DNA from: Hyphomonadaceae bacterium
GTDB lineage: Bacteria > Pseudomonadota > Alphaproteobacteria > Rhizobiales > Hyphomicrobiaceae
Assembly: GCA_019747815.1 (NCBI GenBank)
Contig: JAIEQJ010000050.1
Span: 1-64,000 of the forward strand
Length of the DNA stretch: 64,000 nucleotides
Direction of reading: 5' to 3'
Shown: positions 4,643-56,723 of the stretch, in pieces
Position numbering within the stretch: the stretch's first letter is position 1
Layout of the letters: the number at the start of each line of letters is the position of its first letter
The notes under the pieces: generated by a model
The model's database searches: none
The model's input: the letters and a program-made list of their open reading frames with translations, nothing else
What the model was told of the DNA's origin: nothing
Made by a program: the position numbers and the translations under genes

Positions 4643-4646
4643 AGCC

Positions 4647-32747: not shown

Positions 32748-32756
32748 GGGATGCCT

Positions 32757-34058: not shown

Positions 34059-34156
34059 GGCTGGTTCCCGCGTGGTTCGTTCTTCGGGCAAAGCTTCGCT
34101 GGTGGCGTGCCTCGGGCGGCACGCCGGTTGCAGGCTCGATGCGGGTCAAATTTCGG

Positions 34157-34879
34157 CTAGCGGCTGTAGGCGGTGCCGATGCCGAGGAAGCTTTTGAACC
34201 GCTGGCGCGCCTCGTCCTCGCCGGCGATATCGCGGGCTCGTTGCATCGTGTCGGCGCGATGCTGAGCGGCCAGCAGGCTTTGCAGGGCGAGGGCCTGTTT
34301 CACGCTGAGGCCGACCAGCTCGTTGCCGGCTTGCGCCACCTCCAGGGCGCCGCTGGCTAAGCGAGAACGGTCCATGGCCTGACCGAGGAGCAGACTGTCG
34401 GCTGCAATGCCGTCGCCGATCTGGCCTTGCAGCAGGGCGGCGCGCCGCAGCGCGTCGTACTGCTCCTGCCAGCGCAGCTGCGCGTTGCGCAGCACCGCAT
34501 CACTCGACAGGCTGAGCGCCACCTCGCGTGGGAACAGGCGCTCGTAGGCCCCTTGCGTGGCCTGCAGGTTGAGCGCGATGCCATTGCCTTGTTGCAGTTG
34601 TCCCTGGAGGGCGGCGAGCGTGCGCTGCAGATCCGGACTGATGCTGCCGCCGAGCCGGGCCAGATTCAGGTCCATGCGTGCGAGCATCTGCGCCTGCGCC
34701 TGCAGCTGGCGAACCTGATTGTTGATCTGCTCCAGCGCGCGCGTGGCGGACAGGAGGTTCTCCTGATAGTTGACCGGATCGAACACGGTGAGCTGTGCCG
34801 CGGTGCGCGGCACGCAGCTCGACAGGGTCATCACCACCACGGGGATTGCCAGCGTCATGCGGCGGCGGGCCAACCTCAT
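34157..34879 (-). CDS. trbJ: Conjugal transfer protein TrbJ (VirB5-like)
   Basis: AQLTVFDPVNYQENLLSATRALEQINNQVRQLQAQAQML. Confidence 0.9.
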   Translation of the reverse strand: MRLARRRMTLAIPVVVMTLSSCVPRTAAQLTVFDPVNYQENLLSATRALEQINNQVRQLQAQAQMLARMDLNLARLGGSISPDLQRTLAALQGQLQQGNGIALNLQATQGAYERLFPREVALSLSSDAVLRNAQLRWQEQYDALRRAALLQGQIGDGIAADSLLLGQAMDRSRLASGALEVAQAGNELVGLSVKQALALQSLLAAQHRADTMQRARDIAGEDEARQRFKSFLGIGTAYSR

Positions 34880-37521
34880 CCTCCCCTCCTCTTGCTCTTG
34901 GGCTGTGTGACGCGGAACGGCGACAGGCGCTCGCTGAGCGGCGGGCCGCCGGGAAGGCCAGGCAGCGGCGTCGCGTCGGTGCGGGGTTCGACGCGGGGCG
35001 CCGCTGCCTTCGGTGAAGATGCTGCCGCCGGCAGGGCTTGCTCGGCGGGGGGCGCATCTTCAGCCGGATCGATGGGCGTGCGCGGTGGCAGGGGCGGTGG
35101 CAGCGCTGGCGCTTGCCAGCGTGCGATCAACTCGGCGGCCCAGGCCAGGTCCTTGGCTTCGAGAAAGCGCGCGGCGAAGCCCTGCGGTGTGCCGCCGGCC
35201 ATGCAGCGATCGATGAGGCGCTGGTCATCGGGCGATGAGGCTCCGCACAACGCCAGCGCCACCGGTCCCAGGCCGAGTTCGAACAGTCGATTGCCGCGCG
35301 CGGTCTGGGCGTAGTAGTCGCGTTTGGGGGCGGCCAGGCTCAGGATCTCGACCTGGCGGGTATTGAGGCCGAAGCGCTCGTAGACCGTGCGCGCCTGCGG
35401 TTCCAGCGCCCGGTCGTTGGGCAGGAAGATGCGGGTCGGGCAACTTTCGATCAGGGCGGGCGCGATGCTGGAGCGCTCGATGTCGGCCAGCGACTGCGTG
35501 GCGAACAACACCGCGACGTTCTTCTTGCGCAGGGTCTTCAGCCATTCACGGATGCGGGCCGCGAACAGGGCGTCGTCGAGAAAGGTCCAGGCCTCGTCCA
35601 GGATCAGCAGGGTGGGGCGGCCGTCGAAGCGCGCTTCGAGGCGATGGAATAGGTAGGTCAGCACTGGCGCGATCAGCGCCTTGTGCTGCATCAAGTGCTC
35701 CATCTCGAAGTGCAGCACGTCGGCCGTTGCCAGGGCTTCGCTGGCCCCGTCGAGCAGCCGGCCGTAGGCGCCCTCCAGGGTGTAGGGTGTGAGCGCCGCG
35801 ACCAGCGCGTTGGACTGCATGAGGACGGCGAGGCCGGTGAGCGTGCGCTCCTGTTTGGGTGCGGAGGCCAGGCTGCGCAGCGCGGTCCATACGATATCCT
35901 TCACGTCCGGCGTCACGCGCACGCCTTCGGCCGTGAGCAGGGCGGTGACCCATTGCAGGGCAAAGGCGATCTCGGCGGGCTCGTCGATGCGCGCCAGCGG
36001 CTGCAGCGACAGCGTGCCTTCGAGCCCGAGCTCGATGCTCTCGCCACCCATGGCAAGGGCCGCAGCGCGCGCCGAGCGGCCGCGATCGAACAACACGACC
36101 TGCGCGCCGATGAAGCGGCGGAACTGCAGGGCGAGCAGGGCCAGCAGCACCGACTTGCCGGCGCCGGTCGGGCCGACCACGAGCGCGTGGCCGACGTCGC
36201 CGACATGCAGGTCGAGCCTAAACGGGGTGCTGCCCCGCGTTTCGGTCATCATCAGCGCTGGGCCTGCGAGATGGCGGTTGGCCTCGGGTCCTGCCCACAC
36301 GGCTGACACCGGCATCATGTGTGCGAGGTTGAGGCTGTGCACGATCGGCTGGCGCACATTGGCGTAGGGGTTGCCGGGCAGGCTGCCGAGCCAAGCCTCC
36401 ACGGCGTTGAGGCTCTCGCGGATGGTGACGAAGCCGCGACCGTTGATGATGCGCTCGACGGCCAGCAGCTTGTCGGCGGCATGCTTGGCATCGGCGTCCG
36501 CGACGATGACGGTGGTGGTCAGGAAGCCGAAGGCGACATCGTCCTGGCCGAGCTCCTGCAGCGCCTCGTCGGCGTCGGTCGCCTTGTTGTCGGCATCGGG
36601 ATCGACCAGCGTCGTCTCGCGATTGAACATCACCTCGCGCAGGATCACCGACACCGACTTGCGCTTGGCGAACCACTGCCGCCGCAGTCTGGTCAGCTGG
36701 CGCGTTGCGTCGGTTTTCCCAATGGCGATCCATCGTGTGGTCCAGCGATAGGCGAAACCCAGATCGTTGAGCGCATCGAGCACGCCGGGGGTGGTGACAT
36801 TGGGGAAACCCAGCACTGTGAGCGCGCGCAGGTGCTGGCTGCCTAGCTTGGGATCGACGCCGCCGAGGAAGGGCGTATCGCACAGGATGGCGTCGAGGTG
36901 GGTAGGGATCGCCGGCACGGCGACGGTATGGCGTTTGTCGGAGATGGTGTCGTGCAGGTAGGTGAGCGTGCCGGCGTCGTCGAGAGCCTCGACCTCGGGC
37001 AGGATGCCGGCCAGCATCTGCAGGGCGCGTTCGGTCTCGGTGGCGAACAGGGCGAGCTGCGCCCGCGGCTCGGGCTCCAGGTCGCTGTCGTCGGTGCGCT
37101 CGTAGAGCAACCGCTCGGCGCGGCCCTCGTGCTCAGGGGGCGGCAGGTACAGGAAGGTCAGGTAGTAGCGGCTTTCATGGTGCGCACCGTCGGCGCTGAA
37201 GGAGGCGTAGCGTTCCTGATCGACGAGCCAGCTCGCGGCGTCGGCAAAGCGCGCGCCGGGATACTGGTTGGCCGGCACGCGTTCGGCCTCGAAGAACAGC
37301 GCCCAACCGGCGCCAAAGCGTTTCAGGACATTGTTGAGGCGGGCGCTGACAGAGACCAGCTCGGCCTCGGTAGCGCTGTCGAGGTCGGGCCCGCGATAGC
37401 GCAGCGTGCGCTGGAAGGAGCCATCCTTGTTGAGGACGATGCCGGGCGCCACCAGGCAGGCCCACGGCATGTAGTCGGTGAAACCGAAGGTCTTGCGGCG
37501 GTATTCGGAGAGGTTCAGCAC
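34876..37521 (-). CDS. trbE: Conjugal transfer ATPase TrbE (VirB4-like)
   Basis: VLNLSEYRRKTFGFTDYMPWA; Walker A VVGPTGAGKSVLLALLALQF; ILDEAWTFLDDALF. Confidence 0.93.
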   Translation of the reverse strand: MLNLSEYRRKTFGFTDYMPWACLVAPGIVLNKDGSFQRTLRYRGPDLDSATEAELVSVSARLNNVLKRFGAGWALFFEAERVPANQYPGARFADAASWLVDQERYASFSADGAHHESRYYLTFLYLPPPEHEGRAERLLYERTDDSDLEPEPRAQLALFATETERALQMLAGILPEVEALDDAGTLTYLHDTISDKRHTVAVPAIPTHLDAILCDTPFLGGVDPKLGSQHLRALTVLGFPNVTTPGVLDALNDLGFAYRWTTRWIAIGKTDATRQLTRLRRQWFAKRKSVSVILREVMFNRETTLVDPDADNKATDADEALQELGQDDVAFGFLTTTVIVADADAKHAADKLLAVERIINGRGFVTIRESLNAVEAWLGSLPGNPYANVRQPIVHSLNLAHMMPVSAVWAGPEANRHLAGPALMMTETRGSTPFRLDLHVGDVGHALVVGPTGAGKSVLLALLALQFRRFIGAQVVLFDRGRSARAAALAMGGESIELGLEGTLSLQPLARIDEPAEIAFALQWVTALLTAEGVRVTPDVKDIVWTALRSLASAPKQERTLTGLAVLMQSNALVAALTPYTLEGAYGRLLDGASEALATADVLHFEMEHLMQHKALIAPVLTYLFHRLEARFDGRPTLLILDEAWTFLDDALFAARIREWLKTLRKKNVAVLFATQSLADIERSSIAPALIESCPTRIFLPNDRALEPQARTVYERFGLNTRQVEILSLAAPKRDYYAQTARGNRLFELGLGPVALALCGASSPDDQRLIDRCMAGGTPQGFAARFLEAKDLAWAAELIARWQAPALPPPLPPRTPIDPAEDAPPAEQALPAAASSPKAAAPRVEPRTDATPLPGLPGGPPLSERLSPFRVTQPKSKRRGG

Positions 37522-37787
37522 GACAGCACCCCCTTGTGACGGGCGTGCCGCGACAGCACGGTGAGGAAGGCCGGATCCTTGCGCGTCACCCACACGGCGA
37601 TGGCATGCCCGACCAGCCAGATCAGGCCGCCGGCAATCCACAACCGCAATCCGAGCCCGATCGAGGCGGCCAGCGTGCCGTTGAGGATGGCGAAGCTGCG
37701 CGGCGCGCCGCCGAGCAGGATCGGCTCGGTCAGGGCGCGATGCAGCACGACCTCGAAGCCGGGGACGGAGGAAGGTTGACCAAGCAT
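37515..37787 (-). CDS. trbD: Conjugal transfer protein TrbD (VirB3-like)
   Basis: VLHRALTEPILLGGAPRSFAILNGTLAASIGLGLRLW. Confidence 0.9.
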   Translation of the reverse strand: MLGQPSSVPGFEVVLHRALTEPILLGGAPRSFAILNGTLAASIGLGLRLWIAGGLIWLVGHAIAVWVTRKDPAFLTVLSRHARHKGVLSC

Positions 37788-37810
37788 GCGGTGTGCGCTC
37801 CCGTGTGGGT

Positions 37811-38152
37811 TCAGTTGATCAAGGCGCCGCCGGCGAAGGAGAAGAACGAGAGAAAGAACGAGGTGGCGGCGAAGGCGATGGAGAGGCCGAACACGATCTG
37901 GATCAAGCGTCGGAGGCCGCCACCCATGTCGCCGAAGGCGAGGCTCAGGCCGGTGACAATGATGATCACCACCGCCACGACCTTGGCGACGGGGCCCTCG
38001 ATCGATTCCAGGATGCGCTGCAGAGGCGCTTCCCAGGGCATGCCCGAGCCGGCGGCTTGCGCGGCATCCGTGACGATGACGGTCACCATGGCCACCGCCC
38101 AGCCTGCGAGCGTGGCTCGCAGCAGCGCGGGAAGCAGGGGGCTATCGCACAT
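37811..38152 (-). CDS. trbC: Conjugal transfer protein TrbC (VirB2-like pilin)
   Basis: Signal peptide, GSGMPWEAPLQRILESIEGPVAKVVAVVIIIVTGLSLAFGDMGGGLRRLIQIVFGLSIAF. Confidence 0.9.
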   Translation of the reverse strand: MCDSPLLPALLRATLAGWAVAMVTVIVTDAAQAAGSGMPWEAPLQRILESIEGPVAKVVAVVIIIVTGLSLAFGDMGGGLRRLIQIVFGLSIAFAATSFFLSFFSFAGGALIN

Positions 38153-38159
38153 GGCTGTC

Positions 38160-39149
38160 TCACACGGTGTGCAGGATCGGCGGCGCGATCGGCTTGAGGA
38201 CGTAGTCGCCGTCGGGCCCGAGGCCGGACAGCTCGAGCATGGTCTCGACGCGGCGCTGCGCTCCGCGGCCCTGCAGGAAAACGACGACGTCAATGGCCTG
38301 CACGATCAGGTCGCGCGGCACCGTCACCACGGCCTCCTGCACCAGCTGCTCCAGGCGGAAGAGACCGCCCAACGCGGAGTTGGCGTGCACGGTCGTAATG
38401 CCGCCGGGATGCCCGGTATTCCAGGCCTTGAGCATGTCGAGGGCTTCGGCACCGCGCACCTCGCCGACGATGATGCGGTCGGGGCGTAGGCGCAGGGTTG
38501 AGCGCACCAGGTCGGCCAGGGTGGCGACGCCGGGCTTGGTGCGCAGCGCCACGCAGTCCGCTGCGGCGCATTTGAGCTCGCGGGTGTCCTCCAGGATAAC
38601 GACGCGCTCGCTGAGATCGGCGATTTCGGCGAGCAGGGCATTGACCAGCGTGGTCTTGCCCGACGAGGTGCCGCCGACCACCAGGATGTTCTTGCGTTCG
38701 CGCACGGCCAACGCCAGTGCAGCAGCTTGGCGCACCGATACGATGCGGCTCGCCACGTAGTCGCTCAAGCGATAGAACACGTCGGCGGGCTTGCGCACGG
38801 CAAAGCAGGGCGCCGGCGCGACGGGCGGCATCACGCCTTCGAAGCGCTCGCCGGTTTCGGGCAGCTCGGCCGAGACGATCGGCATCTTGTCCGTGACCTC
38901 GCGACGCACGTGCGCCGCGACCAGGCGGATGATGCGTTCGGCCTCGGCAGGGCCGATGCGCTCGCCGCTGTCGACGCGACCGATGCTGGCCCGCTCGATC
39001 CAAAGGCGACCGTCGGGATTGACCATCACCTCGATCACGGTGGGGTCGGTCAGGGCGGCGGCGATGGTCGGTCCGAAGGCGGTGCGCAGCATCTGCCGGC
39101 GACGTCCCTGGGCTTCTTCAGCAGGAGCGAGCATGATCAGATCAGCCAT
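38160..39149 (-). CDS. trbB: Conjugal transfer ATPase TrbB (VirB11-like)
   Basis: VVGGTSSGKTTLVNALLAEIA, LILEDTRELKC-type motif, RLRPDRIIVGEVRGAEALDMLKAWNTGHPGGITTVHAN. Confidence 0.94.
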   Translation of the reverse strand: MADLIMLAPAEEAQGRRRQMLRTAFGPTIAAALTDPTVIEVMVNPDGRLWIERASIGRVDSGERIGPAEAERIIRLVAAHVRREVTDKMPIVSAELPETGERFEGVMPPVAPAPCFAVRKPADVFYRLSDYVASRIVSVRQAAALALAVRERKNILVVGGTSSGKTTLVNALLAEIADLSERVVILEDTRELKCAAADCVALRTKPGVATLADLVRSTLRLRPDRIIVGEVRGAEALDMLKAWNTGHPGGITTVHANSALGGLFRLEQLVQEAVVTVPRDLIVQAIDVVVFLQGRGAQRRVETMLELSGLGPDGDYVLKPIAPPILHTV

Positions 39150-39663: not shown

Positions 39664-41700
39664 CTAAAGACGCAGCCCCGGAAACTGGATGACCTTGTCG
39701 AGCGTCTCGCCGGGCGGCGCGTCTTCCTCGACGGTGGGTTCAGCGAGGCTTGCTGCGAACAGCGGCAGGTCGTTGAGTGGCCGTTCTTCCTTGTCTTTTT
39801 TCCTTCGCGGGATGGTCCGGCTCAGGGGTCGCGTTTCCTCGCTGTCTCCGCTCGTTACGAGCTCCGACCATGGCTTGTCGAGGCGTGCATCCATGCTGCG
39901 GACCTGGCCCGACCAATCGTCGCCGCGCGCGGTCGGCACATCCAGGCATCTGTCCGTTCCCAGCATCGGCGCAGGCAAGCACCGCGCCAGGAAATTCCGA
40001 TCGACGTAATACCTGAGCTTGCAAGCACGGATGGGCGGCACACCCGAGACCAGCACCAGGGCGTCGTCCGGCGCGAGCTGCAGCACTTCGCCGGGCGTCA
40101 GGAGCGGGCGAGGCGTCTCCTGCTCGGAGATCGAGGTATGCGACAGCCAGGCCGACAGGCGCCGCCCCGACAAGTTCCTCTGCGCGCGCAACTCGGTGGC
40201 CGTTCCCAGCGCGTCGGATAGACGCTTGGCGGTGCGCTCATCATTGGGCGCAAAGGCAACGCGGACATGGCAGTTGTCGAGGATGGCGTGGTACTGGCCA
40301 TAAGCGCGGTCAATCTGGTGCAGCGACTGCGCCACCAGCAATGCGCGGATTCCATAGCCCGCCATGAAGGCCAGCGACGACTCGAAGAAGTCCAGCCGTC
40401 CGAGCGCCGGGAACTCGTCGAGCATGAGCAGCAACTGGCGTTGCGGCGTGTTGTCGTTGGCAACCTGCAACGTCTCGGTGAGACGGCGGGCGATCTGGTT
40501 GAGGATCAGCCGGACCAGCGGCTTGGTGCGGGAGATGTCGGACGGCGGCACCACCAGGTAGAGTGACACCGGCCGTTGCGCCGTCATCAGGTCGGCGATG
40601 CGCCAGTCGGAGCGCGCCGTGTTGGCGGCGATCAACGGATCGCGGTATAGGCCGAGGAAGCTCATGGCGGTCGACACCACGCCCGAGCGCTCGTTGTCGG
40701 ACTTGTTGAGCAGCTCGCGCGCGATCGAGGCCACTACCGGGTGCGCGAGAGGCGCCTCCTCGGTGCCGTGGTGGTTGGTGGTCAGCATGATCTTGAGGGT
40801 GCGCAGGATGGACCGCGAGGGGTCGGCCAGGAACGTGGCAACGCGAGCCAGCGTCTTCTCCTGCTCGGCGTAGAGAACGTGCAGGATGGCGCCGGTCAGC
40901 AGCGCATGCGCGGTCTTCTCCCAGTGGTCGCGCCGCTCCTTGGCACCTTCCGGGTCGACCAGGATGTCGGCGATGTTCTGCACATCCCGCACCTCGTGCG
41001 TGCCCTTGCGTACCTCGAGCAGCGGGTTGAAGCGTGCAGACAGAGGATTGGTCGGATCGAACAGCAGGCAGTACGAGAAGCGAGCGCGCCAGCCGGCGGT
41101 GAGCGTCCAGTTCTCACCCTTGATGTCGTGAATGACCGCCGAGCCAGGCCAGGTCAGCAGCGTCGGCAGCACAAGCCCCACGCCCTTGCCCGACCGTGTC
41201 GGCGCCACGGCGAGCACGTGCTCCGGTCCGTCGTGACGCAGATAGCGATTGTCATAGACACCCAGCACGATGCCTCGATCACCCAGCAGCTTTGCCGCGC
41301 GCACATCTGCAATGTCCGCCCAGCGGGCCGAGCCGTAGGTCGTGGGCTGGACCTTGCGGCCCGTCCGCCGGGCGGCTCCCCCGATGGCAACCACTCCGCA
41401 GGCCAATCCGCCTGATGCTGCGATGACGCCAGCGCGCGCAAACACGTCAGGCGCTTGCGCCTCGAAGGCCAGCCACCAGGCGAACAGCTGCCACGGCGCA
41501 TAGATCCTGAGGCCGAGGACTTCGAGCCAGGCGCCGCCAAGGGCCGGCTGGTAACCGAGCGCGGCGGCCGCCCATTGCGTCGCCGCCCACATGCTGGCGA
41601 CAACCAGTGCGATGGCAGTGCCAAGCTGGAGCCCGTATGTGCGAGCCGACGTCATCCCTCGTTTCCCCGTTTGGCGCGAGCGCTCAAGTGAGGTCAGCAT
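39664..41700 (-). CDS. traG: Conjugal transfer coupling protein TraG (VirD4-like); alternative start 41655
   Basis: VLAVAPTRSGKGVGLVLPTLLTWPGSAVIHDIKGENW, LLMLDEFPALGRLDFFE. Confidence 0.93.
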   Translation of the reverse strand: MLTSLERSRQTGKRGMTSARTYGLQLGTAIALVVASMWAATQWAAAALGYQPALGGAWLEVLGLRIYAPWQLFAWWLAFEAQAPDVFARAGVIAASGGLACGVVAIGGAARRTGRKVQPTTYGSARWADIADVRAAKLLGDRGIVLGVYDNRYLRHDGPEHVLAVAPTRSGKGVGLVLPTLLTWPGSAVIHDIKGENWTLTAGWRARFSYCLLFDPTNPLSARFNPLLEVRKGTHEVRDVQNIADILVDPEGAKERRDHWEKTAHALLTGAILHVLYAEQEKTLARVATFLADPSRSILRTLKIMLTTNHHGTEEAPLAHPVVASIARELLNKSDNERSGVVSTAMSFLGLYRDPLIAANTARSDWRIADLMTAQRPVSLYLVVPPSDISRTKPLVRLILNQIARRLTETLQVANDNTPQRQLLLMLDEFPALGRLDFFESSLAFMAGYGIRALLVAQSLHQIDRAYGQYHAILDNCHVRVAFAPNDERTAKRLSDALGTATELRAQRNLSGRRLSAWLSHTSISEQETPRPLLTPGEVLQLAPDDALVLVSGVPPIRACKLRYYVDRNFLARCLPAPMLGTDRCLDVPTARGDDWSGQVRSMDARLDKPWSELVTSGDSEETRPLSRTIPRRKKDKEERPLNDLPLFAASLAEPTVEEDAPPGETLDKVIQFPGLRL

Positions 41701-45871: not shown

Positions 45872-46794
45872 TCAGGCGGCGGAGCGATGAGCGGTGGTGT
45901 CCTGCAGGCCGTCGAGATAGGCGACGGCTTCCTGCGCCTTGGCGGCGGCAGAGAAGATGGCGCGCGGGTCGGCCTTCATGACATCGAGCCAATGGTGGAT
46001 GTAGCGGGCGTGGTCGGGGTGCGGCTCGATGGCGATGGCGAGACGCGCGCACAGGAAGGCGGCACCGATCTCGGCGCAGCTTCCTCGAAACAGTAGGCCT
46101 TGTCGCCGAAGCGCTTGCCGAACTCGCGGTTCAGGCGATGCGGCGCACCAGACCAGTGCGTTGCCTCGTGTCCGAGCACGCCATACCAGGACTCGGTGCG
46201 CGTGCGCCCGTCGCTGGCAATGAAGCGCGCCTCGTCGGGCATATGCACGGTATCGGTGGCGCGCCGATAGCACGCCTGCGTCCCGCCGACGATGACCTTC
46301 GCGCCGGTGGCCGCGAAATAGGCTTCGGCGGCTGCGATGCGCTCGATGGGATCGGGCGGCAGCGCCATGGCGGGCTGGTAGCCGTCCACTTGCTCGGCGG
46401 CGAACACCCAATAGCCGCGCGCAAAGCGCCGCCGCTCCGTCTCTCCTTCTCCGTCGTCGCCATCGGACTCGGCCGCAACGGTGATCTCCTTGTAGAACAC
46501 GATTGGGCTGGCCTTCTCGCCCTTGCGCACACGCGCGCCCTTCTCGTTCCACTGGCGCAGCGTCGCCCACTCCCCTGAATCGTAGCCGCGCTCCAGCGCG
46601 CTCACCCACAGGCTCAGGACGTTGACGCCGCGATAGGCTTGGCCCGTGACGGCATTGCTCGGCAGCACGGGCCGCGTGCCGCCTCGCTGCCACGGCATGA
46701 TGGGATCGCCGGGGCTCGCCTCGATGGCGGCGAGCAGCTTGGCGGTGATGGTCTCGTAAATGTCGGAACGCGGTTTTTGAGCTTTCGAGCGCAT
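45872..46794 (-). pseudogene. ArdC-like antirestriction protein with C-terminal frameshift near 46085-46100
   Basis: SDIYETITAKLLAAIEASPGDPIMPWQ...GVLGHEATHWSGAPHRLNREFGKRFGDKAYCFEE then reading continues in another frame as EIGAAFLCARLAIAIEPHPDHARYIHHWLDVMKADPRAIFSAAAKAQEAVAYLDGL. Confidence 0.85.
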
Positions 46795-47997: not shown

Positions 47998-48073
47998 GCT
48001 GGCTTAGCTCATCGGGCAGAGCACTCGCCTTGTAAGCGAGAGGCGGGAGGTTCGAGTCCTCCAGCCAGCACCA
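47998..48073 (+). tRNA. tRNA-Thr(TGT)
   Basis: GCTGGCT/AGCCAGC acceptor, CTCGC-CTTGTAA-GCGAG anticodon arm, encoded CCA. Confidence 0.95.
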
Positions 48074-48081
48074 GCATCGAT

Positions 48082-48166
48082 GCACTCGTGGCGAAACGGC
48101 AGACGCAGCCGCCTCAGAAGCGGCCGCCCTCGCGGCATGGAGGTTCAAGTCCTCCCGGGTGCACCA
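48082..48166 (+). tRNA. tRNA-Leu(CAG)
   Basis: GCACTCG/CGGGTGC, GCCGC-CTCAGAA-GCGGC, long variable arm, CCA. Confidence 0.95.
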
Positions 48167-48232
48167 TATTTGCTTGCGCGCAGTCACGCCGAAGGCGTGC
48201 TTTCAGCACGACACACCAACCCTGCGCGCACC

Positions 48233-48309
48233 GCTCGCTTCGCCAAGCGGCCAAGGCATCGGTCTTACACACCGACATTTCCCAGGTTCGAGTCCTGGAG
48301 CGAGCACCA
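48233..48309 (+). tRNA. tRNA-Val(TAC)
   Basis: GCTCGCT/AGCGAGC, TCGGT-CTTACAC-ACCGA, CCA. Confidence 0.9.
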
Positions 48310-48314
48310 AATCG

Positions 48315-48388
48315 TCTCCCGTAGCTCAATGGCAGAGCGCCCGGCCGATAACCGGAAGACCGCGGTTCGATACCGTGCGGGAGAACCA
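48315..48388 (+). tRNA. tRNA-Ile(GAT)
   Basis: TCTCCCG/CGGGAGA, CCCGG-CCGATAA-CCGGA, CCA. Confidence 0.92.
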
Positions 48389-48459
48389 ACATCAGAACAG
48401 GAAACCCATCATGACCATCAAAGAAACGAAGCGGCTTGCCGCCGCATCTCCACTAGCGT

Positions 48460-48544
48460 GGACCCGGAGCGTTCAAGCCTGAGACGGTTGGGCAGCGGGC
48501 TTTTAATCCGTGCGCCAGAGGTTCAACTCCTCCCGGGTTCTCCA
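48460..48544 (+). tRNA. tRNA-Lys(TTT)-like, atypical D-region
   Basis: GGACCCG/CGGGTTC, GCGGG-CTTTTAA-TCCGT, AGAGG-TTCAACT-CCTCC, CCA; ~85 nt with expanded D-region. Confidence 0.65.
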
Positions 48545-48561
48545 ACCGCAACACCACATAC

Positions 48562-48638
48562 ACACGACTAGCTCAATCGGTCAGAGCGCCGTCCTCTTAA
48601 GTCGGAGGTTCGCGGTTCGAGTCCGCGGTCGTGTACCA
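48562..48638 (+). tRNA. tRNA-Lys(CTT)
   Basis: ACACGAC/GTCGTGT, loop CTCTTAA, GCGG-TTCGAGT-CCGC, CCA. Confidence 0.9.
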
Positions 48639-48646
48639 AATGCATT

Positions 48647-48721
48647 GGCCTGCTACGCATCTGCTGAGGCGAGCCCGTTGTCTGCGGGTCGAGACGGGTT
48701 GGATTCCCGTGCAGGCCGCCA
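48647..48721 (+). tRNA. tRNA-Asp(GTC), atypical T-loop
   Basis: GGCCTGC/GCAGGCC, GCCCG-TTGTCTG-CGGGT, T-arm ACGGG-TTGGATT-CCCGT, GCCA. Confidence 0.75.
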
Positions 48722-48755
48722 GCTTCATTCACCTGTCATCGAAAGGAGGTCAGCG

Positions 48756-49298
48756 ATGTCCATCTCAGCGCATCCCGCGCTCGTGCTCAACGCCGACTTC
48801 CGGCCGATGAGCTACTTCCCGCTCTCGCTGCTGTCGTGGCAGGATGCGGTGCATGCCGTGTTCAGTGACCGCGTCTCGGTGGTGGCCGAGTACGACGTGT
48901 GGGCGCGCAGCCCGTCCACGCAAATCCGGCTGCCGTCCGTCGTGGCGCTGCGCAAGTACCAGCGTGCGTCGCGGCGTGTTGCTTTCACGCGCTTCAACGT
49001 GTTCCTACGCGATCGCTTCACCTGCCAATATTGCGGCGAGGAGTTTGCGTCATCGGAGCTGACGTTCGAGCACGTGATCCCGCGCTCGCGCGGCGGCCAG
49101 ACGGCCTGGTCGAACATCGTCACCGCGTGCGTGCCGTGCAACACGGGCAAGGGCAGCTCCCTGCGCGTCAAGCCGCGCCGGATGCCGAAGGAGCCCACGA
49201 CCCGCGAGCTGCTGGCGGCCAAGCGAGCGTTCCCGTCCGGCTATCTGCATGAGAGCTGGGCGGACTACCTCTACTGGAACACCCAACTCGAGGCCTGA
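48756..49298 (+). CDS. HNH endonuclease encoded inside the tRNA array
   Basis: FLRDRFTCQYCGEEFASSELTFEHVIPRSRGGQTAWSNIVTACVPCNTGKG. Confidence 0.92.
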   Translation: MSISAHPALVLNADFRPMSYFPLSLLSWQDAVHAVFSDRVSVVAEYDVWARSPSTQIRLPSVVALRKYQRASRRVAFTRFNVFLRDRFTCQYCGEEFASSELTFEHVIPRSRGGQTAWSNIVTACVPCNTGKGSSLRVKPRRMPKEPTTRELLAAKRAFPSGYLHESWADYLYWNTQLEA

Positions 49299-49328
49299 TT
49301 TCCTCTCCTCACGCATGGGGAGAGGAAA
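49299..49328 (+). repeat. 10-bp perfect inverted repeat just after the HNH stop (terminator or processing hairpin)
   Basis: TTTCCTCTCC-TCACGCATGG-GGAGAGGAAA. Confidence 0.6.
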
Positions 49329-49334
49329 CAATAC

Positions 49335-49412
49335 CGTCTCGTAGCTCAGTCGGACCAGAGCGCCGCCGTCCGAAGGCGGAGGTCGCGCGTTCAAGTCGCG
49401 CCGAGACGTCCA
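49335..49412 (+). tRNA. tRNA-Arg(CCG)
   Basis: CGTCTCG/CGAGACG, CCGCC-GTCCGAA-GGCGG, CCA. Confidence 0.93.
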
Positions 49413-49529
49413 GTTTGGTTCCGCGCGCGTTCATGCCGGACGCCCACTCCGGCATGCCCATCAATCGCGCGTCGATGGCGCCGCGCCGTTCGTCGTGCCC
49501 ACGCGAACAGGCGCGGCGCTTAGTTCTCA

Positions 49530-49617
49530 GGAAGGCTCCGCTGGAGTGGCCGGCACCCCGTCTTGAAAACGGGTGGGCACCGCAAGGTGTGGCGTTCGAA
49601 CCGTCAGCCTTCCGCCA
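49530..49617 (+). tRNA. tRNA-Ser(TGA)
   Basis: GGAAGGC/GCCTTCC, CCCGT-CTTGAAA-ACGGG, long variable arm, GCCA. Confidence 0.93.
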
Positions 49618-49667
49618 ATACCGGCGCGGGTGATCGCAAGGTGGCCCGCACCAATCCGAACAAGCAC

Positions 49668-49752
49668 GCACAGATACTCAAGCGGCAACGAGGCCTGATT
49701 GTAGATCAGGTGCCTTCGGGCTCCGCAGGTTCGAGTCCTGCTCTGTGCACCA
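49668..49752 (+). tRNA. tRNA-Tyr(GTA)
   Basis: GCACAGA/TCTGTGC, CCTGA-TTGTAGA-TCAGG, long variable arm, CCA. Confidence 0.93.
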
Positions 49753-49826
49753 GCGTCCGTAGCTCAATGGCAGAGCCGCGCGTTGCCGACGCGCAGACAT
49801 GGGTTCGATTCCCATCGGCCGCACCA
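49753..49826 (+). tRNA. tRNA-Gly(GCC)
   Basis: GCGTCCG/CGGCCGC (one mismatch), GCGCG-TTGCCGA-CGCGC, CCA; abuts tRNA-Tyr. Confidence 0.88.
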
Positions 49827-49837
49827 ATTGTGAATTC

Positions 49838-49910
49838 GCCTGGGAAGCTAATCTGGTGAAAGCGCCGCGTTGAAGCCGCGGAGAGGTGGGCTCGAAACCT
49901 ACCCCAGGCA
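49838..49910 (+). tRNA. tRNA-Phe(GAA)
   Basis: GCCTGGG/CCCAGGC, CCGCG-TTGAAGC-CGCGG; no encoded CCA. Confidence 0.85.
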
Positions 49911-49924
49911 CCCACCGTATTCGC

Positions 49925-49982
49925 GGGGGTCGGACCCGTCTCGCCACCGCTCCGTTGCACGCGGAGCAGGGTCTGGCCCCCT
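49925..49982 (+). tRNA. tRNA-Cys(GCA)-like, ~58 nt, lacks a recognisable T-arm
   Basis: GGGGGTC/GGCCCCC acceptor-like stem extending to 13 bp, GCTCCG-TTGCACG-CGGAGC anticodon arm, T at discriminator position. Confidence 0.45.
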
Positions 49983-49995
49983 AGGCAACCCAATC

Positions 49996-50068
49996 GGGGT
50001 ACGCGCAGGGTCCGCAGATCTCCCTTGCAAGGAGATTGAGCTCGGTTCGAGTCCGAGGTGCTCCACCA
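49996..50068 (+). tRNA. tRNA-Ala(TGC), reduced D-arm
   Basis: GGGGTAC/GTGCTCC, ATCTCC-CTTGCAA-GGAGAT, CTCGG-TTCGAGT-CCGAG, CCA. Confidence 0.85.
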
Positions 50069-50069
50069 T

Positions 50070-50143
50070 TCCCTGATCGTCCAACGGCAGGACGCCCGGT
50101 TGTTAACCGGTCAATCCAGGTTCGAGTCCTGGTCGGGGAGCCA
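50070..50143 (+). tRNA. tRNA-Asn(GTT)
   Basis: TCCCTGA/TCGGGGA, CCGG-TTGTTAA-CCGG, GCCA. Confidence 0.93.
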
Positions 50144-50153
50144 ATTCACATGC

Positions 50154-50229
50154 GTCGCGATCGTCTAGTGGCAAGGACACGCCGGCTCTCAACCGGCAGA
50201 CCGGAGTTCGAGTCTCCGTCGCGGCACCA
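50154..50229 (+). tRNA. tRNA-Glu(CTC)
   Basis: GTCGCGA/TCGCGGC, GCCGG-CTCTCAA-CCGGC, CCA. Confidence 0.92.
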
Positions 50230-50234
50230 ACAAT

Positions 50235-50311
50235 GCACACGTAGCTCAATTGGACTGAGCACCTGATTACGGATCAGGAGGATGCAGGTTCGAGGCCTGC
50301 CGTGTGCGCCA
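50235..50311 (+). tRNA. tRNA-Arg(ACG)
   Basis: GCACACG/CGTGTGC, CCTGA-TTACGGA-TCAGG, GCCA. Confidence 0.95.
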
Positions 50312-50317
50312 CATCAT

Positions 50318-50396
50318 CAGCGTGTAGGGGAGCCTGGCCGTCCCTGCCTGGCTTGGAACCAGGAGATCGGTGGTTCAAATCCACCCACGCTGACCA
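50318..50396 (+). tRNA. tRNA-Pro(TGG)
   Basis: CAGCGTG/CACGCTG, CCTGG-CTTGGAA-CCAGG, CCA. Confidence 0.94.
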
Positions 50397-50399
50397 ATT

Positions 50400-50476
50400 G
50401 CCCTCGTAGCTCAGCGGATGAGAGCGGCTGCCTTCTAAGCGGCAGGTCGGGTGTTCAAGTCACCCCGAGGGCTCCA
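50400..50476 (+). tRNA. tRNA-Arg(TCT)
   Basis: GCCCTCG/CGAGGGC, GCTGC-CTTCTAA-GCGGC, CCA. Confidence 0.94.
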
Positions 50477-50481
50477 AGAGA

Positions 50482-50570
50482 GGATGGTTGGCCGAGCGGT
50501 AAGGCAGCGCGATGCTAATGCGCCGAGACCTCCAGGGGTCGCGCAGGTTCGATCCCTGCACCATCCGCCA
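50482..50570 (+). tRNA. tRNA-Ser(GCT)
   Basis: GGATGGT/ACCATCC, GCGCG-ATGCTAA-TGCGC, variable arm, GCCA. Confidence 0.94.
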
Positions 50571-50572
50571 GC

Positions 50573-50646
50573 GCGGGCGTAGCTTAATGGCAGAGCTGCT
50601 GCCTTCCAAGCAGACGACGCGAGTTCGATTCTCGCTGCCCGCTCCA
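50573..50646 (+). tRNA. tRNA-Gly(TCC)
   Basis: GCGGGCG/TGCCCGC, CTGC-CTTCCAA-GCAG, CCA. Confidence 0.94.
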
Positions 50647-50651
50647 ACATC

Positions 50652-50728
50652 GCCACGTTCGTCTAGCGGCCGAGGACACCGGTCCTTCAAATCGGATGGC
50701 GCGGGTTCGAATCCCGCACGTGGCTCCA
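50652..50728 (+). tRNA. tRNA-Glu(TTC), unusual C33
   Basis: GCCACGT/ACGTGGC, CCGGT-CCTTCAA-ATCGG, CCA. Confidence 0.88.
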
Positions 50729-50734
50729 CTGTAT

Positions 50735-50809
50735 TGCCCCTTCGCCTAGCAGGTAGGGCACCGGGCTTTGAACTCGGGCGGCTTGGTTCGAAACCAAGAG
50801 GGGCAGCCA
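50735..50809 (+). tRNA. tRNA-Gln(TTG)
   Basis: TGCCCCT/AGGGGCA, CCGGG-CTTTGAA-CTCGG, GCCA. Confidence 0.93.
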
Positions 50810-50819
50810 CCTTCAACTC

Positions 50820-50894
50820 CGCGGAATAGCTCAGTCGGTAGAGCGGGGGTTTCATACGCCTCGTCAGCCGCAGGTTCGAGTCCTGCTTCCGCGA
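50820..50894 (+). tRNA. tRNA with CAT anticodon (Met; Ile2 not excluded)
   Basis: CGCGGAA/TTCCGCG, GGGGT-TTCATAC-GCCTC, GCAGG-TTCGAGT-CCTGC; no encoded CCA. Confidence 0.88.
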
Positions 50895-50902
50895 CTTTTT
50901 TT

Positions 50903-50974
50903 GCCGGCTTAGCCAAGTGGGAAGGCAACGGGTCGTGGCCCCGTCACGAGGCGGTTCGACTCCGCCAGCCGGTA
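50903..50974 (+). tRNA. tRNA-His(GTG)
   Basis: GCCGGCT/AGCCGGT, ACGGG-TCGTGGC-CCCGT, GGCGG-TTCGACT-CCGCC; no encoded CCA, no encoded G-1. Confidence 0.85.
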
Positions 50975-50975
50975 C

Positions 50976-51051
50976 GGGCGTGTAGCTCATCGGTAGAGCG
51001 GCGGATTCCAAATCCGCGCCAGAGAGGGTTCAATTCCTTCCTCGCCCGCCA
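50976..51051 (+). tRNA. tRNA-Trp(CCA)
   Basis: GGGCGTG/CTCGCCC (one mismatch), GCGGA-TTCCAAA-TCCGC, GCCA. Confidence 0.88.
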
Positions 51052-51236: not shown

Positions 51237-51650
51237 CTACCACCCGGCCCAATTCTTCAGTGCTTGCCATATGCCTTTATGCTGCGGAGTTTCCGTGCTG
51301 AGCTTCTTCCTCTCGTAGAAATTCTTCTTCGCGCTCTCGTCGAAGGACTTGGCCGACCTGATCTGCGCTTCGGTCCAGCGAGGCGCCCACTCAATACGGT
51401 TCTCACGAATCCAATAGTGGGACTGGCAGCGAAAGTCCCAATTGCCTATCGACGGGTACAAAGAGATGGTCTCACCGTCAAACGTGAGCTTCCAGTCTGT
51501 CGGACTGAGTGGGGTGACCACTTTCTCTCCGCAGCCGCAGCAACATTTGTGAATCGCCGAAGCGTAGGACATCGACACGTACAATACACCCTCCTCGAGC
51601 GCCGGCGGCACGAACTCGATAAACTCTGGCCTGAGATCCCGCTGCTTCAT
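51237..51650 (-). CDS. DUF6527-like Cys-rich protein of a ubiquitin-like system
   Basis: EFVPPALEEGVLYVSMSYASAIHKCCCGCGEKVVTPLSPTDWKLTFDGETISLYPSIGNWDFRCQSHYWIRENRIEW; ATGA overlap with ThiF gene. Confidence 0.75.
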   Translation of the reverse strand: MKQRDLRPEFIEFVPPALEEGVLYVSMSYASAIHKCCCGCGEKVVTPLSPTDWKLTFDGETISLYPSIGNWDFRCQSHYWIRENRIEWAPRWTEAQIRSAKSFDESAKKNFYERKKLSTETPQHKGIWQALKNWAGW

Positions 51651-52837
51651 GCGTTGTCGTCGCCCGTCAATAGATGGCAATCAATCGTGTAAGTAGAATA
51701 GTGCTCCTTCTCGCTATCAGCGTAGAACCCGCGAAGCTTCTTCCACTTCCCCACCGCGAGCGCCGCGTTCAACGCATTGAGGTCGGCAACCTGGATGTTG
51801 CGATCATATTCGTCGTTCTCGGCGGCCTTCCCCAAAGGAATGCGGTGCTTCTCATGCACATGCTTGCGGTGCGTGGGTGTGCTGGCCGTGACCCTCAAGA
51901 TGCCGGCGATGCTTTCGTCCTTCATGTAAAGTCCCATGCCCACATCGATGAACGGCACTCCGTATTCTTCCAGCTTTTTGACAATGAGCGCCTTCGCTTC
52001 CCCGACATCCAAGCAAAGGAAGACGAAACTCATGCCATTGAGCAGGTGAACATTCGTGTCATCGATGTACACGGGATGGGCCACAATGCCCTTGTGCATC
52101 CTTGAATAGATGCTCTTGAAGTAGTCCACCTTCAGTGGCTGTTCCCGCAGCTGCTCGATTGAGGGCGCTCCGGGCGCACGAAAGGCATTGTGGGTGTTGA
52201 ACACATCGCCATCGAACAGATGGATTTCCTGACTAGGCGCCTTGGCGACGAGGTCCAACACGTAAGCACCCGTTCCGCCGAGACCGACAATGCCCGTCTT
52301 GGGAAGGGCTAGCTTCGCCGTCGCGCTGTTTATGTCAGCGCGGCCCGATGCCGTATCGATGTAGTGAAAGGGCGAGTTGTCCACGGGGTCAGCTTCTTCA
52401 ACGCGATTGACCCGCGCGCTCAAGCCCGGCTCTAGCGCGGCGGCGTGGCTCTCAAGAATTGCCGCATACGTAGCCATCTTCTCATAGTAGTCGAGATAGT
52501 GTCCTCGCTGCGGTTTCTGCGAGAACGAGAAGCTTGCAATAAGCCCTTCGGCCAGCTTGTTCTGGTTGTTGCCACTGATGATCTCCGTCATCAGCGAACC
52601 GTCCTTGTGGCACGGGTGCTCACCCACAAACTGAACCTGGTGATCGTCAGGTTGCTTGGTAACGTCCCCCGCCAGGTTGAGGCTGGAAACGAGGATGCCA
52701 TCCCGCTTAACCTGCCGCTGAGCATTCACATACGGAACGCTTCTCAGCAGCAGGTAGCTGGCGCGAACTTCGACATGATACCCGTCCTCCCGCAACCGCT
52801 TAAGGTCGGCGTTACGATTTATAAGTTCTCGTGACAT
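51647..52837 (-). CDS. ThiF/E1-like adenylyltransferase with N-terminal E2/DUF6791-like region
   Basis: KTGIVGLGGTGAYVLDLVAKAPSQEIHLFDGDVFNTHNAFRAPGAPS (Rossmann GxGGxG); N-terminal VGEHPCHKDGS. Confidence 0.85.
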   Translation of the reverse strand: MSRELINRNADLKRLREDGYHVEVRASYLLLRSVPYVNAQRQVKRDGILVSSLNLAGDVTKQPDDHQVQFVGEHPCHKDGSLMTEIISGNNQNKLAEGLIASFSFSQKPQRGHYLDYYEKMATYAAILESHAAALEPGLSARVNRVEEADPVDNSPFHYIDTASGRADINSATAKLALPKTGIVGLGGTGAYVLDLVAKAPSQEIHLFDGDVFNTHNAFRAPGAPSIEQLREQPLKVDYFKSIYSRMHKGIVAHPVYIDDTNVHLLNGMSFVFLCLDVGEAKALIVKKLEEYGVPFIDVGMGLYMKDESIAGILRVTASTPTHRKHVHEKHRIPLGKAAENDEYDRNIQVADLNALNAALAVGKWKKLRGFYADSEKEHYSTYTIDCHLLTGDDNA

Positions 52838-53342
52838 TGAAGATGGTCCCGTTCTTGACCTCGACGGTTTCACCTTCAGTCAGCGTGCCCTCGCGGTTTG
52901 GTCCGGCAGCCTTCTTGTAAGTGACCGTGTAGACCCACTCAGAACCATCGGTCTGCGGAAACGCCAGCTTTACGACTTCGCGAAAAGTCAGCTCCTTCTT
53001 GTCGACCACCTTCTCTTCGAGGTTGACGACAATCTTGAAGTGGCGATCGTGAGCCTTGCCGCTATGGAAGTGCTCGTCCTGCCGGAGGTGCACACGCGTC
53101 GCCTCCCGGGAGACTGGTTCATCCTCCCGGTTCCCATCGACTTCCCGGTAAAGAACGTAATGGTCCTTCACATGCCCAAGGGCGTAAAGCGCAGCCCCCG
53201 TGGTCGGATTAGGCGACCGGTACGCCTTCTGATCAATATGGACGCGAACCTCGTCCAGGTGGCGTTCTGTGGAGCCCGCCGGGGGGTGATTCCCTCCGGC
53301 AACATGATGCGGGTCACCAGACCCCGAATTACCCTCAGCCAT
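52812..53342 (-). CDS. Multi-ubiquitin-domain protein (tandem ubiquitin-like repeats)
   Basis: DEVRVHIDQKAYRSPNPTTGAALYALG... and HFKIVVNLEEKVVDKKELTFREVVKLAFPQTDGSEWVYTVTYKKAAG; immediately upstream of and overlapping ThiF gene. Confidence 0.8.
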   Translation of the reverse strand: MAEGNSGSGDPHHVAGGNHPPAGSTERHLDEVRVHIDQKAYRSPNPTTGAALYALGHVKDHYVLYREVDGNREDEPVSREATRVHLRQDEHFHSGKAHDRHFKIVVNLEEKVVDKKELTFREVVKLAFPQTDGSEWVYTVTYKKAAGPNREGTLTEGETVEVKNGTIFNVTRTYKS

Positions 53343-54468: not shown

Positions 54469-56220
54469 TCATGTCCTACCGGGCAGACCGCGGCCGCGAT
54501 CGAGTGTCCAGGTGACACGGCTAGGGCCAATCAGTCCGACGACGGGGCGGCCCCGCATGGGCTCAAGCGCCGATTTCCAGGGCGCGAGCGTGAAGGTGTC
54601 CTCACGCCGGATAACAGCGATCCTCCCGGTCGGCGTGGCGAAGGCATGGTCATAGGTCCCGGAGACGCGATGTCCGGGTGGCGTGGCAATGAAAGTGGCG
54701 TTCAGACGCTTGGAGAGATCCCAGACGATCCGCTCCGTCTCTGCTTCCCGCAGTCCTCTCATCATATGCGGTTCTGGCCGCACGCCGGCCGACGACCAAT
54801 GAGCGAGCTGACGCTCTGCGAGCCAGCGACCACGCGCGGATAGTGCCTCCTGTAATTCGCCTGCAAAGCCCGGCATCCCGGCCTCGGGCCGCCAGTTGGA
54901 GATGATGGCCTGATCAAGCCATGTCGGCCCATTGTATTCGAGCTGCTGCTCCAACTGGACCGGCGAGAGCTCCTGGAGCCTGGGGGTCGGCGATGGCCGC
55001 CCCGCCTTGAGGCTGTCGCTTGCCAGGGCGACGATGGTACCGCGGACTGGAAGATCGGCCGATCCGAGCCAGCCAAGCTCGGCATAGTGAACGCGTCCAT
55101 CGACGGCATCGACCACAACCCAGGTGTGGTCGCTGATCTCGTCGACCAGACCGACGCCCACGACCCTGCCGATGAGCGGCGCCTTGCGCGGACCCCGCTC
55201 GAACAGTGCCATGGCGGCAGCGCTGCGATCGATGCCGGCTTCCTGCAAGGCGCGCTGCATCATCTTGAACTTGTCGGCGCGGGCCCCGAGCTGGCGCAGC
55301 TTGTCCTCGGCCTTGGGATCAAGGGCCCAGACGCCCCGTTGCCGTTCCTCAGCAAGGCCGAGCCGTTCCAGCGTCTTGAGGCGGCCGACCCGCAACGTCT
55401 GCTGGGTTGGATCCAGCTCCTCACCGAACGTGACCACGAGGACGCCGTTCTTGGCGCGCGCCACCAACGCCCGGTCGAGCCGCGTGAGGCGCTCCTGGCT
55501 GACCTCGTTGAACAGTTTCTGCATGCGCTCGAGGTCGCTCTCGGGCCCCAGCTCGAGCGTAACCAGGGATTGCGCCCGGGATCGCACGCCATAGGCGATG
55601 TAGTCCCGAGCCATGACGAGGTCCTTGCCCTGATCGTCGCGGCCGCGGATGACGATGTGGGTGTGGGGATGTCCCGTGTTGAAGTGGTCGACCGCGACCC
55701 AATCGAGCTTGGTGTCGAGGTCGCGTTCCATCTGGGCGAGCAGATCGCGGATGAAGGGCTTGAGGTCGGTGAGCTGGGCACCCTCGTCGGCGGAGACGAC
55801 GAAGCGGAACTGGTGCGGGTCCTTCTCGGAGCGATCGAGAAACAAGCCTGCATCGACGTCCTCGCCGGACGCGTCGTAGAGCCGGCCCGGCGCACCCTCC
55901 CGGGTGACGCCATCGCGCACGATGTATTTCAGGTGCGCTCGGGCCGCGCCAAGATCGCCGGCGGCGATCCGGGTGTATCGGGCCTTGACGATGACGCGTC
56001 GGCTGCCAGGCGCGATCAACCCTGCCGCTGCACGCACGCCGGCACCCATGCCGCGCTTGGGCATCTCAGCCAAAACGTGGCCTTTGTGCCTCAGGGCGCG
56101 GGCGCCGTGTTTGCGGGCCTGCCGAAAGACGAGTGCCGCATGTCGTTCGGCCCGGGCGCGACGCGCGTCGCGGATGCGTCCGAGCTTGGGATCGAAGTCG
56201 TCTTGCGCCATGCGTGCCAT
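54469..56220 (-). CDS. Conjugative relaxase/mobilisation protein with DUF3363-like C-terminus
   Basis: ARAHLKYIVRDGVTREG, DPHQFRFVVSADEGAQL, VDHFNTGHPHTHIVIRGRDDQGKDLVMARDYIAYGVRSRAQSLVTLELGPES. Confidence 0.88.
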   Translation of the reverse strand: MARMAQDDFDPKLGRIRDARRARAERHAALVFRQARKHGARALRHKGHVLAEMPKRGMGAGVRAAAGLIAPGSRRVIVKARYTRIAAGDLGAARAHLKYIVRDGVTREGAPGRLYDASGEDVDAGLFLDRSEKDPHQFRFVVSADEGAQLTDLKPFIRDLLAQMERDLDTKLDWVAVDHFNTGHPHTHIVIRGRDDQGKDLVMARDYIAYGVRSRAQSLVTLELGPESDLERMQKLFNEVSQERLTRLDRALVARAKNGVLVVTFGEELDPTQQTLRVGRLKTLERLGLAEERQRGVWALDPKAEDKLRQLGARADKFKMMQRALQEAGIDRSAAAMALFERGPRKAPLIGRVVGVGLVDEISDHTWVVVDAVDGRVHYAELGWLGSADLPVRGTIVALASDSLKAGRPSPTPRLQELSPVQLEQQLEYNGPTWLDQAIISNWRPEAGMPGFAGELQEALSARGRWLAERQLAHWSSAGVRPEPHMMRGLREAETERIVWDLSKRLNATFIATPPGHRVSGTYDHAFATPTGRIAVIRREDTFTLAPWKSALEPMRGRPVVGLIGPSRVTWTLDRGRGLPGRT

Positions 56221-56723
56221 TGCCATCGACCTGATGGCAAAGCGAGATGGCGCAGCGCGCAAGAAGTTCAAGACGGCGTCAAGCAAGACGTTGGGTGCGA
56301 AGGCGGATTTCTGATGCTGACGCCATGGACGCACGCTTGACGTCGTCGGCAAGCCAGGCGTTGCGGCCTTTGGCGCTCAACCGACGTCACTCTTTTATCC
56401 TGGTGTCCAAAAGTGAGCTCTCAAACTTCCTGCAACTTCCTCAGATGGATTCCCAGTTCATCAGCACTGAATGGCCGCCAAGGAGCACACTGCGAGCGTG
56501 CAAGCACGAACCGAGGATGATCGAGACGACCATGCCGCGGATCACGTGATGGAGCAGGAAGCGGACGCGCAGTATCCATGTCTTCGATGCCACACCCGCC
56601 GTGGCGCACGAATGACATGGGACCACTGCGGACCGGAAGCAGGGCGGGTGGGTGGGGGAGGTTGGCGGAAGAGAAAGAAGAGCCTCCGCCCCGCCGCAAT
56701 CGGAGCGGAGGCGATGAGTGCGC

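Follow-up and report, generated by a model that had tools for sequence, protein, structure and literature searches.

Results

A compact tRNA array with an embedded endonuclease gene

We analysed a stretch of 64,000 nucleotides from a Hyphomonadaceae bacterium (the window: positions 1 to 64,000 of contig JAIEQJ010000050.1, assembly GCA_019747815.1), which lies at one end of a contig of 167 kb in a 5.4-Mb draft genome. A conjugative element found there carries a compact array of tRNA genes in which an HNH endonuclease gene is embedded. By its gene order and by the homology of its endonuclease, this array belongs to a phage-related lineage, and its origin is not in the host.

ARAGORN finds 23 tRNA genes at 47998-51051, all on the + strand, which are exactly the limits and the strand given in an initial annotation of this DNA. 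With the Rfam tRNA model, whose gathering score of 29 bits was the cut-off, a search of the complete window gives 20 tRNAs above that score; with laxer filters the number is 21. Applied to the short region, the model confirms 21 of the 23 ARAGORN tRNAs with 50-68 bits, so that most units were not rejected by covariance scoring, the check proposed in the initial annotation.

All array genes are on the + strand and, unless stated otherwise, are recognized both by ARAGORN and by the Rfam model. The first is tRNA-Thr(TGT) (47998-48073; 68.2 bits), followed by tRNA-Leu(CAG) (48082-48166), tRNA-Val(TAC) (48233-48309), tRNA-Ile(GAT) (48315-48388), a doubtful tRNA-Lys(TTT) described below, tRNA-Lys(CTT) (48562-48638) and tRNA-Asp(GTC) (48647-48721); the last of these has a T at position 37 and is seen by ARAGORN alone, with no Rfam match listed. 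An intact frame of 180 amino acids then encodes an HNH_5 endonuclease (48756-49298, + strand; Pfam HNH_5 1.3e-17, HNH 2.6e-15), a gene that was absent from the initial annotation. It is followed by tRNA-Arg(CCG) (49335-49412; 58.1 bits), tRNA-Ser(TGA) (49530-49617), for which the ARAGORN call is joined by a weak tRNA-Sec-like match and by no other support, tRNA-Tyr(GTA) (49668-49752), tRNA-Gly(GCC) (49753-49826), tRNA-Phe(GAA) (49838-49912), a tRNA-Ala(TGC) also described below, tRNA-Asn(GTT) (50070-50143), tRNA-Glu(CTC) (50154-50229), tRNA-Arg(ACG) (50235-50311), tRNA-Pro(TGG) (50318-50396), tRNA-Arg(TCT) (50400-50476), tRNA-Ser(GCT) (50482-50570), tRNA-Gly(TCC) (50573-50646), tRNA-Glu(TTC) (50652-50728) and tRNA-Gln(TTG) (50735-50809). 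The array ends with tRNA-Met(CAT) (50820-50895), in which positions 1 and 72 are paired and which is therefore not a typical initiator, tRNA-His(GTG) (50903-50975), which has A73 like the host tRNA-His, and tRNA-Trp(CCA) (50976-51051); CCA is not encoded in the Met and His genes. A run of T at 50896-50902, directly 3' of tRNA-Met, may form a terminator or a processing signal together with the acceptor stem of that tRNA.

Two genes are added by comparison with related arrays. The tRNA-Ala(TGC) at 49996-50068 scores 27 bits, under the cut-off, and is not among the 23 genes called by ARAGORN; apart from its anticodon stem it is nearly identical, base for base, to the array tRNA-Ala of two relatives (L179 and L069), and its odd D-arm region is conserved in phage arrays. 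The tRNA-Lys(TTT) at 48460-48544, without an ARAGORN call, is a weak near-cloverleaf with an enlarged D arm and a weak tRNA-Sec-like match, which aligns with the phage-array tRNA-Lys(TTT) and occupies the correct syntenic slot. In related arrays the tRNA-Lys(TTT) (L136 and L171) is unusually long, with an apparent extra arm in the variable region. The total comes to 25 genes at most, for 19 amino acids. The initial annotation had counted 26 units and all 20 amino acids; the additional unit, a Cys-like sequence at about 49918-49990, was dismissed, for it has no T arm, cannot be aligned with the tRNA-Cys of any array and is out of place, since homologous arrays have Cys between Gln(CTG) and Arg(TCT). 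Both the Gln(CTG) and the Cys of that segment are absent from the window array, and with the Cys-like unit the claim of complete coverage falls.

A tRNA array unit is recognized by its size and density, with at least 20 tRNA genes and some 2 or more in each kb, by a coverage of 19-20 amino acids such as M. avium shows, by tRNA genes that were not copied from the host and by a mobile carrier; an embedded HNH gene is frequent. Here 23-25 genes for 19 amino acids and one such HNH gene are packed into 3.05 kb, and an integrase, a relaxase, TraG and Trb genes lie in the same window. Clusters with three closely spaced T loops are few in 398 genomes of the order, which argues that the array did not arise by chance.

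One array lineage on phages and on a conjugative element

Relatives of the array came to light through the HNH protein, used as a query, and through a T-loop pattern. They lie in Bradyrhizobium sp. C9 (L069), in nine IMG/VR records (L171-L179, L172 and L069 being one locus) and in two other genomes from this order, G277 and G403. Gene order is shared with the window to a striking degree: the shared tRNAs are collinear for 22/22 in L178, 21/21 in L175 and 20/21 in L069, and for each of the eleven arrays compared none of 2000 shuffles gave as good a match. No such order is shared by the arrays of Mycobacterium plasmids, an Acidiphilium plasmid and a Nostoc plasmid or by two distant viral arrays, although these too have a related HNH gene inside or next to them, and the mycobacterial arrays L182 and L183 match the window order no better than shuffled orders do. 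Among these more distant arrays, those of the viral records L180 and L181 follow a different order that the two have in common; in them a distant member of the same HNH family separates Trp(CCA) from Thr(TGT). The Acidiphilium multivorum plasmid (L184) has a 31-gene array of unrelated order and also a GIY-YIG nuclease gene, and the Nostoc plasmid (L190) has a 24-gene array, again of unrelated order; in both plasmids an HNH gene of the same family lies inside or directly beside the array.

The related arrays L171-L179 and L069 are carried by phages or prophages of 90-132 kb from Bradyrhizobium-type hosts. G424 and G425 encode a terminase, a portal or major head protein and a tail fibre, G424 in addition a tape measure protein, and G429 encodes a terminase, while no coupling protein was found in the virus records with related arrays; these structural genes and the lack of a coupling protein identify the records as phages or prophages. 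Their arrays are direct homologues of the window array, which they resemble in tRNA order, in the place of the HNH gene and in the single clade to which their HNH proteins belong, and we found no paper describing those of L171-L179 and L069. They differ from it in that they sit on phages with capsid and tail genes instead of a conjugative element, and in that their 22-37 tRNA genes, in the stretches examined, extend over up to 12 kb with interspersed genes, the window array being denser.

The HNH gene occupies an equivalent place in the related alphaproteobacterial arrays. In an unrooted tree, with 47 other rows outside the group and with long-branch rows left out, the 13 array HNH proteins are separated from the rest by a branch supported at 99/99, the window protein branching outside the other twelve, and the HNH protein of the host chromosome groups with its own relatives; an earlier tree that included very distant long-branch rows did not place the window protein. 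That the window HNH gene is a recent duplicate of the chromosomal one is ruled out by the tree, in which the paralogue lies elsewhere. The chromosomal HNH_5 gene (L205, C102:11441-11963) is of the same family, with about 60% identity, and such genes are widespread in Alphaproteobacteria (L046-L125).

The constant place and the single clade of the HNH gene, together with the occurrence of HNH genes of this family in otherwise unrelated tRNA arrays, would also be expected if the HNH and tRNA genes formed a selfish homing unit, in which the tRNA genes serve mainly as homology for recombination and bring little benefit. In mycobacteriophages, HNH endonucleases have been linked to changes in tRNA repertoire (PMC5966550), which points the same way. 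We regard this account as rather unlikely in view of the conservation of the tRNAs themselves, presented below.

The array tRNAs are structurally sound and differ from those of the host

The best identity of the array tRNAs to any host tRNA is 66-79%, that is, they differ by 21-34%, which rules out that the array was copied from the tRNAs of the host. About half of them are clearly closer to phage-array than to host tRNAs, and several match the former at 81-92%: identities with array and with host tRNAs are, respectively, 83% and 65% for Val(TAC), 85% and 65% for Lys(CTT), 81% and 63% for Phe(GAA), 83% and 67% for Asn(GTT), and 92% and 68% for Pro(TGG), the counterparts of Val and Lys being from phage arrays. 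In spite of this divergence the stems are kept. In the 23 tRNAs mean pairing reaches 6.91/7 (acceptor stem), 4.83/5 (anticodon stem) and 5.00/5 (T stem), values near those of host chromosomal tRNAs. When stem pairs are compared with the nearest array homologue, 254 are unchanged, 107 have both bases replaced with pairing retained, 17 have one base replaced and 4 are broken. The preservation of stems despite 21-34% divergence from host tRNAs argues for selection on the folded RNA, which would maintain the folds of the array tRNAs. The compensatory changes keep the folds in the helices tested, a property that recombination alone does not need. Amino-acid coverage points in the same direction, as random retention of 25 of 39 ancestral slots leaves at least 19 amino acids in 1.8% of draws (P = 0.018, a rough value because the 39-slot list was assembled by hand from the comparison of arrays); coverage better than random loss would leave is a second argument against a homing unit with dispensable tRNAs.

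A decaying remnant of a phage array, no longer functional, might account for the loss of about 14 of the 39 ancestral slots, for the missing Cys and for the poor Lys(TTT), and the G277 array is shorter still. Near-host pairing in 23 tRNAs, the open HNH frame and a density greater than that of the phage arrays make this very unlikely.

Codon use and host tRNA gaps

Since tRNA arrays cover nearly all amino acids, they might serve codons that are commoner in the element than in the host, and AGA, AGG and ACA are indeed slightly commoner in the element than in nearby chromosomal genes. We nevertheless consider such codon compensation quite improbable: within each amino acid, the codon fractions of the element follow those of the chromosome with a correlation of 0.97, the excess in the element concerns common G/C-ending codons, AAA, TTA and ATA are rarer than in host genes, and most array anticodons are also present on the host chromosome. 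The same duplication of anticodons bears on a broader proposal, that the array supports translation generally in foreign hosts and so extends host range, independently of any tRNA-cleaving defence. Conjugative and phage carriers, near-complete coverage and a tRNA-His with the A73 of the host would suit this proposal, which is unlikely all the same because an ordinary recipient of the order would gain little from anticodons that it largely has.

In a pattern search of the host assembly, two anticodons, Arg(TCT) and Thr(TGT), were found in the array alone, so that the array tRNA-Arg(TCT) is the sole copy found; some other species of the genus have chromosomal tRNA genes with these anticodons. 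Intact copies of Ile(GAT), Ala(TGC), Lys(TTT), Leu(TAA) and Thr(GGT) were not seen on the host chromosome either. It is extremely unlikely that the array is the only host source of tRNA-Arg(TCT) and tRNA-Thr(TGT) and has taken over essential decoding; if it were, an element with the sole essential tRNAs would be impossible to lose. A gap in the assembly or in the search is the likelier explanation of the absent host tRNAs, and the simpler one because Lys(TTT) and Thr(GGT), also unseen as intact copies, should be indispensable. The 5' half of a tRNA-Thr(GGT) lies at C82:70446-70482 (L257) and the 3' half of a tRNA-Lys(TTT) at C80:1486-1530 (L259) of the host assembly, both split at the anticodon region; group I introns were considered for these two broken genes and discarded, as Rfam gave no match.

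The carrier element and its other genes

The initial annotation placed the array on a conjugative element, and conjugation genes are indeed found in the window. A tyrosine recombinase (integrase) gene lies near the contig end (119-1072, + strand; Pfam Phage_integrase 8.4e-21), and the - strand carries the Trb mating-pair genes (TrbI, TrbG-like, TrbL, TrbE and TrbB-like; 29789-39149), a TraG/VirD4 coupling protein gene (39664-41700; Pfam T4SS-DNA_transf 1.2e-100) and a relaxase gene with DUF3363 (54469-56352). ParB and a TraF-like S26 signal peptidase are also encoded on the element. Taken together, the integrase, ParB, the DUF3363 relaxase, the TraF-like peptidase, TraG and the Trb genes form a Tn4371-like set, and the element resembles Tn4371-type integrative and conjugative elements (ICEs). 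In plasmid records, megablast found no similar DNA, and a sensitive search found only short matches, the best covering 18% of the query.

The neighbours named in the initial annotation, an antirestriction gene and a ubiquitin-like operon, are confirmed. The former encodes an ArdC-type protein (45976-46794, - strand; Pfam ArdcN 4.6e-34); the latter, a bacterial ubiquitin-like conjugation operon adjoining the array (51237-53342, - strand), encodes a multiubiquitin protein, a ThiF/E1-like protein with DUF6791, and DUF6527, the multiubiquitin and E1-like genes being at 51647-53342. A search for phages carrying the ubiquitin-like gene found none. Further from the array, the element carries a complete Gabija system (20084-24195, + strand; GajA 4e-210, GajB 2e-185), a row of MukB, MukF and JetD-like genes (7083-14450, - strand) forming a MukBEF-JetD (Wadjet-like) set with only weak matches to PADLOC models, and a gene for a CHAT-domain protein (3464-6857, + strand; PADLOC BovA 1e-197) with an unnamed partner of 392 amino acids upstream.

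Discussion

Earlier reports describe tRNA array units that enclose an HNH gene, on conjugation-related plasmids and on an ICE among other carriers (PMC12803027, PMC5966550, PMC5468388), so that the array is not unique; its description in the initial annotation as a tRNA set of a mobile element holds, the array being common to phages, not copied from the host and structurally maintained. Plasmids of mycobacteria and mycobacteriophages carry units of 26-37 genes, in many of which an HNH gene is embedded (Morgado and Vicente 2018, PMC5966550; Yano et al. 2026, PMC12803027), and these units resemble the window array in their dense tRNA genes, at least 20 in number, and in their mobile carriers. 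Those of M. avium, with 26-27 genes, 19-20 amino acids, one embedded HNH gene and non-host tRNAs, are comparable to it, and mycobacterial phages and plasmids share one isotype order, the same sharing between phage and other element as in the lineage of the window. They belong to a different phylum and carrier type, and their HNH proteins are about 40% identical to that of the window. The tRNA array of an Acidithiobacillus ICE and related islands (Levican et al. 2009 and Tran et al. 2015, cited in PMC5468388) is comparable as a set of tRNA genes, 26 in At. ferrivorans CF27, on a putative ICE. The window array is a well-supported case of such a unit, and what is new is that alphaproteobacterial phages and a conjugative element are linked by one array lineage.

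We propose that the array is a phage-type cassette that has moved horizontally and acts as a self-supplied pool of tRNAs against defences that deplete tRNAs, a reading to which we give a probability of roughly 0.6. About 25 packed and structurally sound genes for 19 amino acids, sharing ancestry as a unit with the arrays of large phages, would have been brought into the conjugative element or exchanged with it. The array would probably be transcribed as one or a few long transcripts, which host RNases would then cut; when the element enters a cell or comes under attack, it would supply tRNAs distinct from those of the host, and translation of element genes could go on in a cell whose own tRNAs had been depleted by a tRNA-cutting defence or toxin. 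Replacement of cut tRNAs is the best explanation because phages carry arrays of the same lineage, host tRNAs were not the source of the array, its tRNA structures are maintained and codon compensation is unsupported. Such a counter-defence supply is plausible by analogy with phages, whose tRNAs were found experimentally to rescue them from tRNA-depleting defences (Azam et al. 2024, PMC11555353) and whose altered anticodon loops have been proposed to resist cleavage (van den Berg et al. 2023, PMC10264068). The window array likewise consists of mobile tRNAs with altered anticodon loops, whereas the anti-defence tRNAs of those studies are phage-borne and the window array has a conjugative carrier. 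We infer that the array tRNAs are transcribed and charged, as we do the counter-defence role, the role of the HNH protein and any direction of transfer.

The anticodon loops are consistent with this proposal. Of the 20 comparable array tRNAs, 17 have one or more changes in the loop besides the anticodon itself, and the ratio of loop to stem changes is 0.90 in the window array and 0.59 in other arrays, compared with 0.14 in chromosomal tRNAs from another family of the order (P = 0.0003 for the window excess). Several observations weigh against a counter-defence role. With a control genome from elsewhere in the phylum, whose ratio is 0.45, the window excess gives P = 0.066 and the other arrays are not significantly higher, so that anticodon-loop change beyond general divergence is only suggestive in the window array. 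No tRNA-cleaving enzyme linked to the array was identified, a scan for sigma-70 promoters found no consensus promoter, and Cys is left uncovered. The discriminator base of four array tRNAs differs from that of the host tRNA with the same anticodon, so some array tRNAs may be poorly charged. Finally, the element has defence systems of its own, and the array could guard against its own toxins or against those of a rival.

The HNH endonuclease most likely cuts DNA and promotes recombination, by which the array could spread, be rearranged or be amplified. SegB, a homing endonuclease of phage T6, belongs to the GIY-YIG family, whereas the window endonuclease is HNH_5 by Pfam; a similar role is possible. 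Amplification of a tRNA locus by SegB leads to escape from Septu (Chihara et al. 2026, PMC13096335, where SegB is grouped in the same family), and SegB is a free-standing endonuclease beside anti-defence tRNA genes, as the window HNH is free-standing among tRNA genes. By this analogy, a role of the HNH protein in recombination or amplification of the tRNA block is attractive.

In Alphaproteobacteria, as among mycobacterial phages and plasmids, one array lineage, order and endonuclease included, spans phages and a conjugative element. Homologous arrays of differing content now allow the counter-defence idea to be tested beyond Actinobacteria, and the finding raises the question of whether defences that deplete tRNAs block conjugation too.

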